Assembly: GCA_026770585.1 (NCBI GenBank) | Contig: MU647016.1 | Span: 76,065 to 96,436 of the forward strand | From: Baffinella frigidus | Lineage: Eukaryota; Cryptophyceae; Cryptomonadales; Baffinellaceae | Length of the DNA stretch: 20,372 bases | Direction: 5' to 3' | In this document: piece by piece, positions 1,250-20,372 of the stretch | Layout: the number at the start of each line of letters is the position of its first letter | Numbering within the stretch: the stretch's first letter is position 1 | Position numbers and translations under genes: made by a program | The notes under the pieces: model-generated | The model's input: only the letters and a program-made list of their open reading frames with translations | Databases searched by the model: none | What the model was told of the DNA's origin: nothing

Positions 1250-1668
1250 CCCACCGTGTGGATCCGCACGTGAGTTGACCACCCGGATCGGCGAGGCCCT
1301 TAACTCTGCCCCCACGCTAATCCAGGCGTAGAGGAGACAGGGTCCCGGCATGGCACCGCTCCAAGTTTCTGAGTAATTCGTCTTCTCGACCTTAAGCTTT
1401 TATTGGTGTTAAGCTCAGGAACGATTGGAGAGGGAAATTCCCGCCATGAACATCCTTCTACAGGAGAGCTACCCTTTATCTGGCTGTGCCGTAAATCCGG
1501 TCGTCAGTTATGTTGGGAAACAATAAACCCTAAAGGTCCTTAAAAAAGGTCCTAAAGGCCAGCGCCGAAAGTCGAGGTCGTTTTAGGTTCTTCCCACCGA
1601 CGAAATTGGCAAATTCCGCCCATGGCCCTGAACCGCCAGAAGGCCCTGAGCCATGAAACTTAAACACT
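1250..1668. other. Non-repetitive spacer, no gene seen
   Basis: No open frame, RNA gene or inverted repeat of note. It includes one TGTTGGGA piece and CCTAAAGG pieces resembling the dispersed repeat seen at 7947-8048 and 10054-10286, too short to call a copy. Confidence 0.4.
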
Positions 1669-1669
1669 G

Positions 1670-3484
1670 TTTCCTAAACCCTGAACCCTAAACCCTGAAC
1701 CCTAATCTCAAAACTTTAAACACTGAACCGTAAACCACATACACTAAACCCTCGAACCCGAACCCTAAACCTCAAACCCTAAACCCTAAAGCCTCATGCC
1801 TCAACACGAATTTCTAAACTCGAAACCCAAAACTACAAACCCAAAACCCTAAACCAAAAAACACTAAACCCTGAACCCTAAACCCTGAACCCTAAACCCT
1901 AGACCCTAACCCCTAAAACCGTAACCCTAAACCCTCAACCCTCAACCCTCAACCCTCAACCCTAAACACTAAACGCTACACACTACATGTACAACCTACA
2001 CCCTACACCCTACACCCTACACCCGAACCACTAAGCCGGAAACCCGAAACCCTAAACGCTAAACCCTGAACCCTAAATCCTAAACCCTAAACCCTAACCC
2101 CTAAACCCCGCACCTCAAACCCTCAACTCTCAACCCTCAACCCTCTGCCCTTGAATTCGCAAGCTGAACACTAAACCCTGAACCGTAAACCCAAAACCCT
2201 GAACTCCAAACCCCAAACCCTGGACTTTAAAAAAACTCAACCCGAACCCTCAAACCCAAAACCCTAAACCCGAATCTTGATAACCTGAACCCTCAACCAT
2301 CAACCCTCAACCCCGAACCCTAAATCCCATCCAACCCGAAACCCTAAATCCTTGCCCCTTAACCCAAACCCTGAACACTAAACCCTGAGCCCTAAACCAT
2401 AAACCCCAAACCCTTAACAAAACCAGGTCCATGAACCCTCAATCCTAAACGCTAAACCATATACCCCAAGCCCTAAACCCTAAACCCTAAACCCTAAAAC
2501 CCAGAACCCAGAACCCTAAACCCCAAACACTAAACACTGAACCCTACACCCCAAAATCTACACCCTAAACCCTAAACCCGAAACACTAAAATCCAAACCC
2601 GAAACACAAAACACTAAACCATGAACTCTAAATCATCAACCATAAACTCCAAACACCACACCCTAAACCTGGGACCCTGAACCTTAAACCCTCAACCCTC
2701 AACCCTGAACCCTCAACCCAAAACCCTGAACACCCAACCCTGAACCCTGAACCCTGAACCCTGAACCCGAACCGCTAAACCCTGAAGCCTGAACCCTAAA
2801 CCCGAAACCCGCAACCCTAAACCCGAAACCCTAAACCCTAAACCCTGAACCCTTAATCTTAAACCCGAAACCCTAAGCCCTAAGCACTTAACCCTGGACC
2901 GTCACCTCCGAACCAAAAAAATCAATTCCTGATCCCGAACCCCATACCTCGAACCCTCAACCCTCAACCCTGAACACCAAACCCTTAACCGTAAACCGTA
3001 AACCGTAAACCGTAAACCGTAAACCGTAAACCCCAAACAATAAGCCTCCAACTCTAAATCCTAAACCCTAAACACTACACCCTAAAAACTGACCCTAACC
3101 CCTAACCCCTAACCCCTAAACCCTACACCCTACACCCTACACCCTAAACCCAAAACCCGAGACAGTGAAACCGAAATCCGAAACCCTCCACTCTAAACCC
3201 CAAACCCTCAACCCTCAACCCTAAACCCTGAACCCTCAACCCTCAACCCTCAACCCTAAAAGCTGAACCCGCAACCCTAAACCGAAAACCCTCAACCGTA
3301 AACCCCAAACCCTGAACGCCAAGCCCTAAACTGTAAACCCTGAACCCTGAACCCTAAATCCTCAACCCTCAACCCTAAGCCCTAAATCCTAAACCCCAAT
3401 CGCTGAATGCTGAACCCTAGACCCTAAACCTTAAACCCTCCCTGAACCCTGAACCCTGAAACCCAAACCTTTGACCCCTAAACC
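1670..3484 (-). repeat. 1.8-kb C-strand degenerate telomere-like array
   Basis: Continuous C-rich heptamers around CCCTAAA with many variants (CCCTGAA, CCCTCAA, CCCTACA, CCCAAA). Variants occur in local runs: CCCTCAA at about 1930-1960 and 3225-3255, CCCTACA near 1995-2025 and 3118-3143, and CCGTAAA at about 2988-3026. It carries splice-like strings (GTAAAC in the CCGTAAA run, ACCAG at 2422-2426). No genes. Confidence 0.95.
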
Positions 3485-3485
3485 C

Positions 3486-3873
3486 GCGTTCAGCGTTTCA
3501 GGTTTGAGGTTTAGGGTTGAGAGTTTGTGGTTGAGGGTTCAGGGGATTAGGGATTAGGGTTGAGGGTTGAGGGTTTAGGGTTGAGGGTGTAGGGTTTTGG
3601 GATCATGGGCTAGGGTTTAGGGATCCAAGGTTTGGCGTTCAGGGTTCAGGGTTCAGGGAGGGTTTAGGGTTTAGGGTTTAGGGTTCAGCGTTCAGCGTTC
3701 AGCGTTTAGGGCTTAGGGCTTCAGGTTTAGGGTTTAGGGTTCAGGGTTTAGGGTTCAGGGTTTAGGGTTTAGGATTAAGGGTTAAGGGTTAAGGGTGTAG
3801 GTTTAGGGTTTGGGGGTAATGTTGAGGGTTCAAAGGTTTAGGGTTCAAGGGTTTAGGGTTTAGGGTTTAGGGT

Positions 3874-4977: not shown

Positions 4978-5237
4978 CAGGGTTTAGGGTTTAGGGTTTA
5001 GGGTTTAGGGCTTAGGGTTAGGGGCTTAGGGTTAAGGGTTTAGGGTTCAGGGTCAAGGGTCTAGGGTTTAGGGTTTGGGGTTACGGGTTTTGAGTTTCGG
5101 GTTTGGAATTTGAGGTTTAGGTTTAGGGTTTAAGGTTGAGGGTTTAGGGTTGAGGGTTGAGGGTTTAGGGTTTAGGGTTTGGAGTTTAGGGTTTAGGGCT
5201 TAGGGTCTAGGGTTTAGAGTTTACGGTTGAGTGTTAA
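4978..5237 (+). repeat. G-strand telomere-like array preceding duplication copy 1
   Basis: TTTAGGG and variants, starting with four clean TTTAGGG units. It ends sharply where the duplicated segment begins (ACGGACCGAGAT), the same junction type as at about 15388. Confidence 0.9.
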
Positions 5238-6258
5238 TGGTTTGATGACGGACCGAGATCAACGTGGCCACCATGTTTTCTCAAAGGTCAAAGCTTACGA
5301 GCGAGGTAGGCGGTGGACATCACCCCCACGCGGCGGTCGTGTTTTTTCGAGAGAGCGGGCGAGAGTGACAGAGGGAGAGCGTGGGAGGGAGAGGGAGAAT
5401 GAGAGAGTGGAAACATGGTTTTCCGTGAGTGTGTGCGCTCGGGAGAAGGGAGAAGCAAACAAGACGCGTACTTATAAATTGTTAACGGGGAAAGTATCGT
5501 TGAGTGACCACACAGCTCGACCGCGGAAAGCTCAGGCCCAGAGCAAGGAGCGTGATACATGAAAGCAGAGGGCAACATCTCAAGTTGCGCGAAGATTCCT
5601 GGGAAAGCACCCAGAGAGACAAGCATGAGAGAGCCTCTTTCGGAACTTCACTTTTTACTAACATGAACACCTATTTTGCACAGACGGCTGGGTCTTGGCC
5701 GGCGGACTCTCACACCACCACCTCCATCTTCAACCTATCATCATCACGCCTGCACGGCGATTGCCGGAGGTGTCGTGGCGATCCCAGCGCTTCGGTGGTG
5801 CGGAGGGCGGTGCATGACGACGGCTCGGCAGGCAGCTTCGCGAGCTCGTCGGTCGGCGGCAGGCAAGCAAGTGCGGCAGGCGACTCGGAAGGCGTGGTAT
5901 CCATTTCAGAACTGGAGCATCGACTTATGCAAGGCGTGGTGGCGGTAGAGAAAGCGTCGTCGTTTGCCTCTCCTGTCGCATGTGAGGGCCACGGGGTCTT
6001 GGCTTGCAAGTGCGTCTCGGTCTGGTCGAGCAAGTCCAGCAAGACCCGCTCCTCCTCGGAAATTGACGGTGGAAGCACGATCCCCGATTGAGTCCACGAT
6101 GGTGGAAGAATGATCTCGTCGCCGTTGAAGACGATGTCGCGCCACGGCATCTTGCTCTTCCTCTTGCGCGTGCTTCTGCCTGTCGCTCGTTGATGTGCTC
6201 GGATTTGTATCGTGTTCTTGCTGTCGTTGGTTGTTGGTGTGGACGTTGGCAATACGAA
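5238..6258. repeat. Segmental duplication, copy 1
   Basis: Collinear with 15388-16640 in the same orientation about 10.15 kb away. Both start at ACGGACCGAGAT immediately after a G-strand telomere-like array, pass through a GA-rich tract (about 5350-5415), the shared ACAGACGGCTGGGTCTTGGC block (5681 and 15875), and then a homologous minus-strand gene. Indels in the leading part (5240-5690) include single bases, so that part is probably untranslated or intergenic. Confidence 0.9.
5710..6150 (-). CDS. Unknown protein, paralogue 1 (MPWRD family)
   Basis: A 146-residue protein of unknown function. The start chosen is the ATG at 6150, which has A at -3 and is the first ATG conserved with the paralogue at 16509; the open frame extends further upstream without a shared ATG. 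Order of parts: MPWRDIVF, GIILPPS-like box (12-19), a second box GIVLPPSISEEE (23-34), an acidic leucine-rich segment RVLLDLLDQTETH (35-47), the conserved stretch TGEANDDAFSTATTPCISR (59-77), then a 56-residue tail absent from the annotated paralogue. No signal peptide or membrane segment. Coding is supported because differences between the copies within 1-90 are all multiples of three. Introns and the true ends are untested. I do not recognise the family. Confidence 0.6.
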   Translation of the reverse strand: MPWRDIVFNGDEIILPPSWTQSGIVLPPSISEEERVLLDLLDQTETHLQAKTPWPSHATGEANDDAFSTATTPCISRCSSSEMDTTPSESPAALACLPPTDELAKLPAEPSSCTALRTTEALGSPRHLRQSPCRRDDDRLKMEVVV

Positions 6259-7382: not shown

Positions 7383-7491
7383 AATCCCTGCACCGTAACG
7401 GTTGTAGTGTATGGTGTTTTAATGAAGTGATGATAACATAGAGAACGGGCCTGTTTGTGCTGGCCATTCGCAGACCTCAAGGGTAGCGCGT

Positions 7492-7609
7492 ACAGGGGTA
7501 CCTCGCTCATATGAAGCACTCACCTCCCTGGGATGACCATAGGGCCCTAGACGTAGGCCTGCGGTAGGTTCCTAGGGTGGTTGGTTTCTTGTGATGGAGG
7601 TACCCCTGT
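7492..7609. mobile_element. MITE, ACAGGGGTACC family (118 bp)
   Basis: Starts ACAGGGGTACCTCGCTCAT and ends GAGGTACCCCTGT, with internal GGCCCTAG / CCTAGGG palindromes typical of the family. Flanks TAGCGCGT (left) and CAGTGTGT (right) match at five of eight positions, all three differences being C/T. This could be an 8-bp target-site duplication decayed by C-to-T change. No coding capacity. Confidence 0.8.
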
Positions 7610-8439: not shown

Positions 8440-8547
8440 ACAGGGGTACCTCGCTCATAAGAAACTGCCACCACCGAAGGGCCATAGGCATAGGCCTACT
8501 GTAGGATCCTAGGGTGGGGCGGTTTCTTATGAGCGAGGTACCCCTGT
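8440..8547. mobile_element. MITE, ACAGGGGTACC family (108 bp), best preserved
   Basis: The left end ACAGGGGTACCTCGCTCATA plus AGAAAC is matched by its inverse at 8521-8547, about 27 bp with few mismatches. The interior is AGGCCTACTGTAGGATCCTA-like and also palindromic, so the whole unit can fold into one hairpin. GCCTCC occurs just outside both ends (8433-8438, 8551-8556) but not at symmetric distance, so no clean target duplication. Confidence 0.88.
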
Positions 8548-9210: not shown

Positions 9211-9243
9211 AGATGGGTTCAAAGTTACACCGCGCTACATGTA
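9211..9243 (+). repeat. 33-bp direct repeat, right copy
   Basis: Exact second copy of 8561-8593. Its last base is the first base of the next MITE, so each copy lies beside an element of the same family. Confidence 0.95.
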
Positions 9244-9303
9244 CAGGGGTACCTCGCTCAAAAGAAACCGCCCCCCCTACGACCCTACTGTAAGCCTCTG
9301 CCT
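9243..9303. mobile_element. MITE left half interrupted by a nested element
   Basis: ACAGGGGTACCTCGCTCA, AAGAAACCGCC and CCTACTGTAAGCCTCTGCCT follow the order of the family interior. The expected continuation AGGGCCCTA is found at 9783, after the element at 9304-9782, so the latter appears to have inserted here. Confidence 0.6.
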
Positions 9304-9805: not shown

Positions 9806-9878
9806 CATACATACTCAAGGGATAGGAGTGTAAGAGGCTACGGCCCACTTAAGGGACATCCCCTCCACCCTAAAGGAT

Positions 9879-10047
9879 ACTGGGGTACCTCGCTCACAGG
9901 TAACCAACCCCCCCCAGGACCCTACAGTAGGCCTATGCCCAGGGGCCTATGGTGATCCCAGGGAGGTGAGCCATCATAGGGCCCCAGGCATAGGCCTACT
10001 GTAGGGTCCTAGGAGGAGGTGCGTTCTTATGAGCGAGGTACCCCTGT
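9879..10047. mobile_element. MITE, ACAGGGGTACC family, enlarged copy (169 bp)
   Basis: Left end ACTGGGGTACCTCGCTCA (one mismatch), right end TGAGCGAGGTACCCCTGT. The interior is itself a long inverted repeat: GGACCCTACAGTAGGCCTAT near 9922 against ATAGGCCTACTGTAGGGTCC near 9990. This suggests an internal foldback duplication. Confidence 0.85.
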
Positions 10048-10053
10048 ACGAGA

Positions 10054-11334: not shown

Positions 11335-11825
11335 AAGCGTATTTGAGTCTGGAAATTTCTGTTCATAAAACCTATCCTGACACCTAATCAAAGACCCAAA
11401 GTTGACTAAACTATCCGGGACATGAGCCATTTTTTTCAAAGTCGTAGAGATTTCCTTTTGCAAATTTGGTGTGTCCATCGACCCTATATATATATATATA
11501 TATACATTTAGAAGGACAGGTTTGACAAAAAAAATTGAAGAACTCTGAAATTCGTGTTTTGCGTCCGTTTATGCGAAAACATCACACGGGGTCGCCCGGG
11601 CGACCCCCTCGCAACCAACGATCTGTGTAGTAAACTGTGTCGTAAAGTTGTTGGTTTTATGGAATCGCAACGTTTCGTTGATACACAAAAGTAGCGAGTT
11701 TTATGTATTTCAAATTTGCTCGATTTTTGAAACACCTAAAGTTGACTAAACTTTCTGGTGTTAGGAATGGTGTTTCGTGTCAGGGTAGGTTTTATGAACA
11801 GAAATTTCCAGACTCAAATACGCTT
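11335..11825. mobile_element. 491-bp AT-rich element with 49-bp inverted ends inside the array
   Basis: 11335-11383 and 11777-11825 are inverted copies differing at one of 49 bases; the ends begin AAGCGTATTTGAGTCTGG. The interior is non-telomeric. It has a 15-bp direct repeat AAAGTTGACTAAACT at 11398-11412 and 11738-11752, (TA)10 at 11485-11504, and the perfect palindrome GGGGTCGCCCGGGCGACCCC at 11588-11607. A trinucleotide ATT lies outside both ends, a possible but weak target duplication. There is no long open frame, so it would depend on a transposase elsewhere. Confidence 0.8.
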
Positions 11826-15387: not shown

Positions 15388-16640
15388 TCGATTACGGACC
15401 GAGATGAACATGGCCACCATGAATTCTCAAAGTTCAAAGCTTACGAGCGAGGTAGGCGGTGGACATAGCCCCCACGCCGCGGTCGTGTTTTTTTCGAGAG
15501 AGCGGGTGAGAGTGACAGAGTGAAAACGCAGGAGTGAGAGGGAGACTGGGAGATTGGAAATATGTTTTTCCGTGAGTGTGTGCGCTCGAGAGAGAGGAAA
15601 GCAGGTACACGCGGACATCTAAATGGTGAACGGGGAAAGTATCGTTGACTGACGACACAGCTCGACCGCGGAAAGCTTAGGCCCATGAGCATAAACTTGC
15701 CTTCATCCCTCGGGATTTCCTCGGGATTTCACAAAGCAGAGTGCAACATCTCAAGTGGCGCGAAGATTTCCGGGCAAGCACCCAGAGAGACGAGCACGAG
15801 AGAGCCTCTTTCGGAACTTCACTTTTTACTAGCACAAACACCTTTTTTACAAGCACGAACACCTATTTTGCACAGACGGCTGGGTCTTGGCCGGCGGACT
15901 CTCACACCACCCACCACCCTTCATAATCTACCATCATCACGCCGGCCTTCGCGGCGATTCCCGGTGGTGTAGCGGCGATCCCAGCGTTCCGGTGGTGCGG
16001 AGGGCGGTGCATGACGACGGCTCGGCAGGCAGCTCCGCGAGCTCGTCGGTCGGCGGCAGGCAAGCAAGTGCGGCAGGCGACTCGGGAGCAGCGTCGTGGC
16101 GGATTCAGATCTCTTGAGCGGCACTTGAGCGTCGGCTTTGGGAAGGCGTGGTATCCATTTCCAAACTGGCGGTTCGGCTTATGCAAGGCGTGGTGGCGGT
16201 GGAGAAAGCGTCGTCGTTTGCCTCTCCTGTCGCATTCGACGGCGACCAGGACTTGGCTTGCAAGTGAGTCTCGGTCTGGTCGAGCACGTCCAGCAAGACC
16301 CGCCGCTTCGCCGGCGACCGGGGCTTGACTTCGAAGTGCGTCTCGGTCGGGTCAAGCAGGTCCAGCAAGACCCGCTCCTCCTCGGAAATAGACGGTGGAA
16401 GCACGATGCCACCGGTGGCGAAGGAGGCGGCGTCGTTCAACCCCGATTGAGTCCACGATGGTGGAAGAATGATGCCATGGCCGGTGAAGATGATGTCACG
16501 CCAGGGCATCTTGTTCTTGCTCTTGCGGGATGCAAAGGGGGATAGGAGTGAGTCCCGTCTGTCGAGAGGAAGCGTCGAGGAAAGTGGGTCCCAAGCACGA
16601 TGTATCGTGTTCTTGCTATCGTTGCTTGTCGGTGTTTGCG
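15388..16640. repeat. Segmental duplication, copy 2
   Basis: Second copy of 5238-6258. It is longer because of indels: extra bases at 15690-15725 and 15835-15860, a 57-bp difference at 16088-16144, a 72-bp internal tandem repeat at 16241-16384, and 33 bp near 16406-16440. It begins at the edge of a G-strand array like copy 1. Confidence 0.9.
16105..16509 (-). CDS. Unknown protein, paralogue 2 (MPWRD family)
   Basis: A 134-residue protein from the ATG at 16509 (A at -3), the start shared with paralogue 1. MPWRDIIFTG and GIILPPSWTQSG are followed by an 11-residue insert (LNDAASFATGG), GIVLPPSISEEE, and a tandem duplication of 24 residues: RVLLDLLDPTETHFEVK (46-69) then RVLLDVLDQTETHLQAK (70-93). 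Next comes the conserved TGEANDDAFSTATTPCISR. Relative to paralogue 1, a 57-bp segment near the end carries an in-frame TGA, so this copy stops 44 residues after the last shared block starts. The corresponding tail sequence is still present downstream (16087 leftward). Either paralogue 2 is truncated or the segment is spliced out, though I see no good GT-AG pair at its edges. Function unknown. Confidence 0.6.
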   Translation of the reverse strand: MPWRDIIFTGHGIILPPSWTQSGLNDAASFATGGIVLPPSISEEERVLLDLLDPTETHFEVKPRSPAKRRVLLDVLDQTETHLQAKSWSPSNATGEANDDAFSTATTPCISRTASLEMDTTPSQSRRSSAAQEI

Positions 16641-17631: not shown

Positions 17632-19391
17632 ATGGCCGATAATTCCGGCTACTTCTCCGAGGGCAGCAGCCCGCTCACCACCGCAACCGGCAGGAGTTGG
17701 TCCCTCAACTTCTTGGACCTCGATGGCTTCTTCGAGAGGAGCATGCACATGGAAGAGGCCAAGGTCCCCGTGCACCGCGCGTTGAGCAGAGTGGTGTCCA
17801 ATGCGCAGCTGGAGATCACCGAACGCGATGGCGGCGCCGCCAGCCCCGCCAGCCCCGCCAGCTCCGTCAGAAACTTCCTCTCGCGGACCAGCAGCACCGC
17901 CGCAGGCGACACGTGGTGGCGAGAATGCGAGTTGCCTGTAGCCCGCAAGCTGCGCCACCGCTCGCGGCGTGAAGCCATCACACGTGTGCATTCCGCTACA
18001 GCTGCCCTCCCCGACTGGCCGGAGGTCGAGGAACACGTCTTCGCCTCCAGCAAGCGGCATCTTCTCAGCTTCACCCTCGACCCAACAACCCTCACCCCCG
18101 ACGTCCTCTGCCACCTGGCCATGGAGATGTTCGTCAGCGCGGGGCTTCCCGCGGGGCTTGCCGAGCACCGCGTGCGCCGCTTCATCCTCGCGGTCCGCGC
18201 CTCCATGCTCGACAACCCCTACCACAACTTCAACCACGTGTTCGACGTGATGCAGACGACAAACGCGCTCGCGACTTCCACCGGGACCATGGCGCGCCTC
18301 GACGCCTGGGAGCGCTTCGGCCTCTTGTCGGCAGCGCTGTGCCACGACTTGGTAAACCCTAACCCTTAACCCCAAACCAGGAGCATCCGGGCGTGACCTC
18401 CGCGTTCCTCTCCAAGCAGGGCGCCTCGGCACACGGATACAAGAACCTCATTTTCCGGGACGCGCTCCTCGAGAAGCACCACGCTCTTCGCGCGCTCGGC
18501 GTCATGGTCGACCGCGACATCGGAATTCTCGACGGGCTCTCCTCCGCGCAGTACTACCAGTTCCGCTCCTCGGTTTCCAAAATTATCCTCGCCACCGACA
18601 TCTCGCGTCATAATGATTACCTCGCTGATCTCAATCAGTTCGCGGCGCGCCGCGCGGAGGACCCGGCGGTGGAGATGGAAAATCAGATGGCCATGGAGCT
18701 CATGGTCAAGTGCGCCGACATCTCCAACGTGATCAAGCCCACCAAGGTGGCGCGCCGCTGGGCACTACGCGTCACCGATGAGTTCTTCAACCAGGGCGAC
18801 GCCGAGCGCTCCATGGGCATGGAGGTCTCGGCAACCTGCGACCGCCTCACCAAGTCGCGCGTGGGTTTGCAAACAGGGTTCATTGACTTCCTCGCCGCCC
18901 CCCTCTTCACCCAACTCGCCGCCGCCTTCCCCGCGGCGCGCGGCCTGGATGCTCCGCTCGCGCAGCTTTTGGCGAACCGCGCGTCCTACGAGCTCTGCTC
19001 CGACGTCGAGCTCGAGCTGTCGCGCGACCTGCTGCTCTCCGAGACGGAATCGTCCGAGAGCCCGACGGAGGTGGGGGGGGCGGGCTCGCGGGTTGGCTCG
19101 CTGGTCTCTCGATGCGACCCGCCGCCCCCCGAGACTCACGAGTCTCCTCATCCTCTCGAGTTGCCGCTGGTGGTTGGCGCCGAGACGTCGCCGAGCAGGG
19201 TTGAGTGGTTCATGGCTGCGCGGGGGTTGAGTGGGTTGGATGTTGCAAGCGAGGAGCATCGTTCCGATCCGCTCCCCTCTGAGACGCAGGCGGGGGTTTC
19301 GGGGGTTTATAGAAGTCGCTTCGAGCCGGAGGATGTTGAGTGGTGTATGGTTGCGCAGGGCTGGAGTGAGTTGGAGGTCGGCGAGCATTAA
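17632..19391 (+). CDS. Class I 3',5'-cyclic nucleotide phosphodiesterase (two exons)
   Basis: Hydrolyses cAMP and/or cGMP to the 5'-monophosphate; specificity cannot be told. Exons 17632-18351 and 18381-19391 give 576 residues. The start ATG has A at -3 and G at +4. The N-terminus (1-140) is Ser/Ala-rich without a GAF or membrane segment. The PDEase_I catalytic domain (HD fold) spans about 145-440. YHNFNH holds the catalytic His198 and metal ligand His202. HDLEHPG (238-244, His238 and Asp239 as metal ligands) is recreated only by splicing. ATDISRH follows, then KCADISN with the third metal ligand Asp353 and EFFNQGDAE. LQTGFIDF has Gln404 where the purine-binding glutamine belongs. All key residues are present, so it is probably active. 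The tail carries a repeated motif (VEWFMAARGLSGLDV at 514-528, VEWCMVAQGWSELEV at 559-573) of unknown role. The N-terminal boundary and further introns are unverified. Confidence 0.93.
18352..18380 (+). other. 29-nt GT-AG intron made of telomere-like heptamers
   Basis: Begins GTAAACCCTAACCC and ends CCCCAAACCAG. Between GT and AG it is degenerate CCCTAAA-type units. Phase 0, between Leu240 and Glu241. Retention would shift the frame (29 is not a multiple of three) and hit TAA at 18367. Removal restores HDLEHPG, the invariant metal-binding motif of the family, which is strong evidence that it is spliced. Confidence 0.88.
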
Positions 19392-19499: not shown

Positions 19500-19621
19500 A
19501 CAGGGGTACCTCTCTCATTCGAAATAGCCTCCTCCTAGGACCCTACAGTAGGCCTGTGCCTAGGGCCCTAAGGTGGTCCTAGGGGTTGTGGGGCGGTTTC
19601 TTATGAGCGAGGAACCCCTGT
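19500..19621. mobile_element. MITE, ACAGGGGTACC family (122 bp) with 8-bp target duplication
   Basis: ACAGGGGTACCTCTCTCAT at the left; TTATGAGCGAGGAACCCCTG plus T at the right. AGCAGGAT flanks it on both sides (19492-19499 and 19622-19629). Short ends of the CAGGG type with 8-bp duplications fit the hAT superfamily. Caveat: the right flank holds other GCAGGA-like repeats (19630-19675). The insertion lies in the phosphodiesterase 3' flank, and the relic at 10137 ends at this same point without it. Confidence 0.85.
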
Positions 19622-19698
19622 AGCAGGATAGGGCTTGGCAGGACAGGACGGCAGTTGGTAGGATAGAGCGGCAGGTGTTGGGTAAAGATGTGCCGTGC

Positions 19699-20161: not shown

Positions 20162-20212
20162 TTTTTTGAGCAAACCCAAGAGGGTTCGGGCATTCACGTT
20201 CCCGGAACGACC

Positions 20213-20372
20213 CCAAAACCCTGAACCCTAACCCAAAACCCCTCAACCCCTCAACCCTGAACTCTAAACCCTAAACCCTAAACCCCAAACCTTAAACCCT
20301 AAACCCTAAACCCTAAACCCTAAACCCTGAACCCTAAACCCTAAACCCTAAACCCTCAACCCTAAACCCTAA
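20213..20372 (-). repeat. C-strand telomere-like array at window end
   Basis: CCCTAAA with some CCCTGAA and CCCTCAA, the cleanest CCCTAAA run in the window. It faces the preceding G-strand array across a 51-bp non-telomeric spacer (20162-20212). Confidence 0.95.

Follow-up and report, generated by a model that had tools for sequence, protein, structure and literature searches.

The window analysed here is a stretch of 20,372 nucleotides of Baffinella frigidus (G000:C684:76065-96436) from a genome that totals 382,457,362 bases over 1364 contigs; the Baffinella CCMP2293 assembly is put at 534.5 Mbp in a passage of PMC9756366. On the plus strand, positions 17632-19391 hold a gene for a class I cyclic-nucleotide phosphodiesterase, which encodes 576 residues once 29 nt are removed. 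Exon 1 (17632-18351) runs from the ATG at 17632 to ...AALCHDL and exon 2 (18381-19391) from EHPGVTS... to the stop, the two being open over 241 and 336 codons, respectively. They match PDEase_I (PF00233) over the catalytic domain with its HD..HPG motif (8e-9 for exon 1, 5e-45 for exon 2). The best solved relatives of the protein are PDEB1 enzymes (E 2e-46), and the nearest named protein relatives, among the matches listed, come from Baffinella frigidus. Neither the Rfam models (gathering threshold) nor a tRNA scan gave a match in the window, and no phosphodiesterase relatives were found in viral contigs.

The CCCTAAA unit resembles the repeat that caps chromosome ends in many organisms. Here, tandem CCCTAAA-like units lie at internal contig sites, and between 38 and 45% of the window is telomere-like depending on the threshold, in line with the share of about 40% given in the first-pass annotation. 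The largest array of the CCCTAAA strand (1661-3486, plus strand, far end set by eye) holds a CCGTAAA run, and the array scan places another on the same strand downstream of the gene (20205-20371). The splice-like strings that had been quoted from the arrays at 2988-3026 and 2422-2426 are present. We also observe MITE-like palindromes with ends TACAGGGGTACCTCGCTCATAAGAAAC at 7491-7609, 8440-8547, 9242-9277, 9878-10049, and 19500-19622 (the last by eye), as well as an element with inverted ends TCTGGAAATTTCTGTTCATAAAACCTA within an array at about 11350-11825 (by eye). Positions 5230-6140 and 15390-16500 appear by eye to be a segmental duplication, with an antisense paralogous gene pair (MPWRDI...) near arrays.

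The two phosphodiesterase exons are separated by a GT-AG interval of 29 nt in phase 0 (18352-18380, plus strand; context ...GACTTG^GTAAACCCTAACCCTTAACCCCAAACCAG^GAGCAT...). Its excision joins CHDL to EHPG and restores the HD..HPG motif, and the junction is codon-exact in the PDEase_I profile, of which positions 1-44 fall in exon 1 and 45-231 in exon 2. Coordinates, length, phase, and motif restoration are thus exactly as first proposed, by the sequence and by the Pfam join at 44/45. If the 29 nt are retained, translation stops after five codons, adding the peptide VNPNP. The interval opens with GTAAAC (18352-18357), a donor common to the four copies in this genome that have an intron at the site, and closes with the acceptor CAG (18378-18380, ACCAG|GAG). 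CTAAC at 18359-18363, 18 nt from the 3′ end, is a possible branch point, and TTAAC (18366-18370) is a second candidate. In the window and in the own-genome copies alike, the ends are GT and AG and removal restores frame and protein. We consider it probable that the 29 nt represent a genuine spliceosomal intron of very short length and at the same time a contracted member of a class of telomere-like introns, a judgment that covers both parts together. Splicing is predicted from sequence; the very short length of 29 nt and the telomere-like DNA around the gene might instead indicate that a dead gene copy has been disrupted by an insertion that breaks its frame, with no intron at all. That reading is very improbable given the long open exons with their strong phosphodiesterase match, three paralogues that share the exact position and the GT-AG ends at different lengths, and ten relatives with inserts that start at the site.

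The annotation had described the intron as made of degenerate CCCTAAA units, and this likeness exceeds that of shuffled sequence. Scored against cyclic CCCTAAA, the 25-letter interior from GT to AG reaches 20/25, a value attained by none of 5000 mononucleotide shuffles and by 12 of 5000 dinucleotide shuffles, and no exon 25-mer clear of the intron (0/1682) scores above 14. The inner 20 letters give a weaker result, with 142/5000 dinucleotide shuffles reaching their score. Shuffling the remaining letters around a constant donor, CTAAC, and CAG reaches the score in 23 of 20000 trials.

A PF00233 profile search of the genome returned at least 40 matches, of which 22 copies could be classified at the site, the rest being parts of these or partial copies. 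Thirteen copies have no intron, four have the window-type intron (type A), and five have an intron 10 nt upstream (type B). The type A introns measure 29 nt in the window, 106 nt in C714, 107 nt in C313, and 121 nt in C882, with flanks of 26 nt that are identical on each side in all four copies. Each is telomere-like from donor to acceptor, with z scores against shuffles of 5.0, 10.5, 12.4, and 12.4 in order of length. We directly observe the bare site, GACTTGGAGCAT, in the paralogues C666, C1219, and C1358. In the genome tree the latter two are the sisters of the window copy (100/100), and the absence of the intron from both fits loss as well as gain.

The type B introns are 100 to 195 nt long, start with GTGAGCCCC, and lie in another phase. 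Their DNA in the five own-genome copies is that of ordinary introns, which score close to shuffled versions of themselves (z 0.4 to 2.5); C187 has the top value, with a slight heptamer excess (13/1000 shuffles reach it). Type B sites were therefore dropped as further telomere-like introns. According to the relevant part of PMC3488318, support is lacking for introns that slide by more than one base, and the 10-nt shift between the two sites is therefore unlikely to be sliding. A third intron position, of ordinary sequence by eye, is seen within the HD motif of C309 (CAC G^AC).

Two histories may account for the distribution of type A introns, one old gain followed by exact losses or several independent gains at one hotspot, and we regard them as evenly balanced. 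The identical position and flanks of the four copies speak for one gain, and the tree (C313,((C714,C882),(C666 none,(window,(C1219 none,C1358 none))))) allows a reading with a single gain and two losses, in which exact loss must have occurred twice. Repeated gains would have had to hit the same nucleotide three times, and are favored by the occupation of three nearby places of this motif across the family at large (type A, type B, and inside HD in C309). Two of the deciding forks of this tree have support values of only 87/84 and 91/86.

The C313 intron of 107 nt comes within an edit distance of 3 from the 29-mer after one internal deletion. Of 60 control array pieces sharing its ends, 4 come equally close, which weakens this step, so that contraction leans mainly on the shared site and the lengths. 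Contraction from a longer member of the class is the best reading of the 29-nt form, and the deletion numbers point only weakly in that direction. A source in the nearby arrays was considered and rejected: the closest array match to the 29-mer lies at edit distance 5 (3 for the inner 27 letters), compared with a mean of 4.4 for 60 random array pieces matched to other arrays (plus strand of the window only). The suggestion of intron birth from telomere-like DNA is supported for the class, which occupies other positions where compared copies have none, and is not supported as a recent capture of the 29-nt copy from a nearby array, given paralogous introns of 106 to 121 nt and no closer array match.

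Protein searches (the best 120 of 139 matches, and 51 further matches) yielded 159 different proteins. At the site, 113 are continuous, 10 carry a translated insert at the phase-0 position of the window intron, 22 end at W, and 13 show other states; the remaining one, P0152, was caught by the read-through filter yet is continuous. Some of the 113 may be spliced models or transcripts, whose genes could still carry an intron. In the 22 proteins ending at W, the intron would begin 10 nt upstream of the window site; before the own-genome DNA was available, these read-throughs could have been telomere-like. Of the ten insert read-throughs, nine differ from a CA-rich null at P below 0.05 (P0125, P 0.14), and the eleven peptides including that of the window sum to 238 against a null mean of 115 (0/2000). 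A search of relatives for an ancestral intron of unrelated sequence, as the first-pass annotation had advised, does find an intron at the exact position, but one that is telomere-like in the four own-genome copies and in those nine read-throughs. P0121, known as a protein record only, is the row nearest to the window in the protein tree and stops at the upstream site.

The insert of P0004 is 123 nt long and in frame. Searching with it retrieved itself and two other proteins, one of them P0161 (PF01264), whose peptide repeat is similar, and the peptide repeat alone is therefore no mark of lineage. The C-termini of P0035 (LLNPKSYTLHPTP) and of P0042 and P0043 (VTLNPNK) look like telomere-like read-throughs elsewhere in the gene. 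Pattern scans of a viral collection gave 13 contigs; short CCCTCAA arrays occur in L002-L013 (L004, L006, L007, and L010 examined for ORF layout and the other eight for composition), and L001 is phage-like by its ORFs.

Scanning the phosphodiesterase loci revealed three further telomere-like introns (z about 10): one of 128 nt in C1297 (DS|VRR, before VRRFILAV), one of 151 nt in C309 (KM|VSR, before VSRLPSS), and one of 66 nt in C1091 (PG|LG, within YPG|LGP). The C1297 site is continuous in 20 of 21 other classified copies, C1219 being unmatched by the pattern. The PG|LG region is open in all 22 classified copies, and C309 is also continuous there. The KM|VSR site was compared with a single copy, C1091, and is uninterrupted there. 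The C1297 intron is accompanied by a possible target duplication that matches in 8 of 10 letters; no clear one was found at the window site or at PG|LG. C309 and C1091 hold ordinary introns too and, together with those of the type B copies, they show that the telomere-like class is not equivalent to all introns.

These longer introns bear on the possibility that splice signals (GTAAAC, CTAAC, a C-rich tract, and CAG), rather than descent, account for the telomere likeness. All of these signals occur in the short 29-mer, and the P0125 read-through is not separable from the CA-rich null. Such convergence nevertheless seems very improbable, since few shuffles match when the signals are fixed, the introns of 66 to 151 nt and the in-frame insert of P0004 are long tandem arrays, and ordinary introns of the same family are unlike the repeat.

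To look beyond this family, 15 stretches were fetched blind to introns. Six are all N (L044, L045, L048, L051, L053, and L057), L058 is 96% N, and telomere-like DNA makes up 3 to 50% of the readable letters in the nine that are not all N. Genes were searched only beside telomere-like segments and only for introns with CCCTAAA in sense, so that the examples say nothing on frequency. A site-1 protease gene on C141 (L047 with L054 and L055) shows three junctions, across which the joined peptide is contiguous with 8uwc_A, a site-1 protease chain of solved structure (query residues 1-135, E 7e-55) and matches PF23090 (1e-64). Its introns of 406, about 788, and about 648 nt are telomere-like over fractions of 0.86, 0.40, and 0.52; for the second, the copy used is unsure, and another acceptor would give 608 nt. 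Partial copies of exon ends lie between telomere-like arrays in this gene, in a mirage-like layout. In a TCP11 gene on C1078, an intron of 93 nt holds eight exact CCCTAAA units after about 20 non-repeat letters, and the joined exons match PF05794 over 149-435 in one stretch, reaching about 45 residues beyond the junction. In a transporter-like gene on C107 (L046; family weak, with MFS_1 and Sugar_tr below cut-off), the readable 3′ part of an intron is telomere-like and the 5′ part falls in a gap. A second TCP11 candidate of 50 nt was dropped because its Pfam match begins just past the junction, as were candidates at L046 4805, in L049 and L050, and on the minus strand of the window, which are without family evidence. 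These examples, sought beside repeats, show that the class extends to further gene families, the site-1 protease and TCP11.

In every telomere-like intron named here, the sense strand is the C-rich one. The phosphodiesterase loci were scanned on both strands, and G-rich segments lie mostly outside coding parts, with one match of 25 nt inside the C309 locus and others in C1219 and C1358. One-sidedness is shown for the phosphodiesterase family only, the other stretches having been searched in C-rich sense alone.

Taken as a class, the introns that are wholly or largely (CCCTAAA)n in this genome support birth from telomere-like DNA, because the same genome has such introns at positions that compared copies lack, as birth predicts. 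It is also possible, if unlikely, that ordinary introns existed beforehand and were overwritten by expanding telomere-like minisatellites, which left nothing of them but the splice sites. Telomere-like arrays are abundant in the stretches examined, and some introns may have been filled later: the site-1 protease introns are mixed in content, with duplicated exon ends between arrays, the TCP11 intron starts with non-repeat letters, and related copies have ordinary introns nearby. Such overwriting fits poorly with the four window-site introns, which are repeat from end to end, with two phosphodiesterase positions uninterrupted in almost every classified copy, with a third uninterrupted in the one copy compared, and with an ordinary type B intron that differs in position and phase.

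Birth could have proceeded by insertion of telomere-like DNA into an exon with the C-rich strand in sense. A pure C-rich strand has no G, its CTAAC and CTAAAC resemble branch-point motifs, TAAAC after an exon G would create the donor GTAAAC, and a change from CCTA to CCAG would supply an acceptor. Because this strand offers donor, branch point, and acceptor signals, the inserted DNA may be close to an intron at birth. Repeat slippage would later lengthen or shorten it, giving 29 to 121 nt at a single site. We tentatively propose, as an idea somewhat short of an even chance, that new spliceosomal introns in this algal lineage are born when telomere-like DNA enters exons, perhaps through telomerase acting at double-strand breaks, and that the C-rich sense makes a ready-made intron, so that a repeat believed to be kept out of exons by its stop codons is tolerated and spreads as introns across many genes.

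The source of new introns is a long-standing question, and many recent cases have been ascribed to transposon-like introners. In the sections of PMC9860276 and PMC7789003 that describe them, introner elements resemble the introns reported here in that repeated DNA forms whole introns at many positions of one genome; they differ in being transposon-like, some with inverted and direct border repeats, whereas the unit here is a telomere-like minisatellite. Low-complexity families were filtered out according to PMC9860276, and a telomere-like class would therefore probably have been removed from that screen. Near-identical copies, as expected of introners, were not found among six telomere-like phosphodiesterase introns (the 29-mer left out): those sharing a site are separated by 27-30 edits over 107-121 nt, and those from separate sites by 36-88 edits over 106-151 nt. 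In this small sample of one gene family, the likeness lies in the repeat unit. Telomere-repeat introns, if true, would be a second and simple source of introns, of a low-complexity kind that the main published introner screen removed. One gene family of one genome here includes both occupied and empty copies, so that gain, loss, and length change become directly testable, and the case also bears on the minimum length of a working intron and on why the repeat was found in one orientation only.

Minisatellite mirages of the amphioxus globin and Adh3 genes, as outlined in PMC3087553, involve a tandem duplication of the exon-intron border that is proposed to yield new intron positions. The site-1 protease gene has such tandem border copies, similarly laid out with telomere-like spacers, and they are absent at the window site in the four copies. 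The mirage units in that account are border copies of 10 to 160 bp and not a telomere heptamer, and the window-site introns are a plain array. For the nucleomorph-bearing alga Amorphochlora amoebiformis, a passage of PMC12730881 reports new lineage-specific introns, half of them with the simple repeat [AT]n; this repeat differs from CCCTAAA, and that passage does not claim whole-intron repeats. Interstitial telomeric sequences, in the portion of PMC7215372 that covers them, are short telomere-like stretches at internal sites linked to double-strand break repair. In humans, 31% are placed there within introns and none in exons; stop codons in either orientation are the explanation given, and how such sequences affect splicing is called worth testing. 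The telomere-like introns described here differ from these in that the repeat is the intron itself and cuts coding sequence. In titles and abstract openings of the open-access literature, among the matches listed, we found no description of telomere-like introns as a class.

The class may show how new introns arise from simple repeats. A second kind of repeat is seen in C1091 (L038), where a 140-nt intron at LQ|VGF consists of a CT-rich, nontelomeric microsatellite with an exact 10-nt direct repeat, TGCAGGTCGG, at its borders; the corresponding site in C309 is bare. This CT-rich intron hints that simple repeats in general may become introns here.
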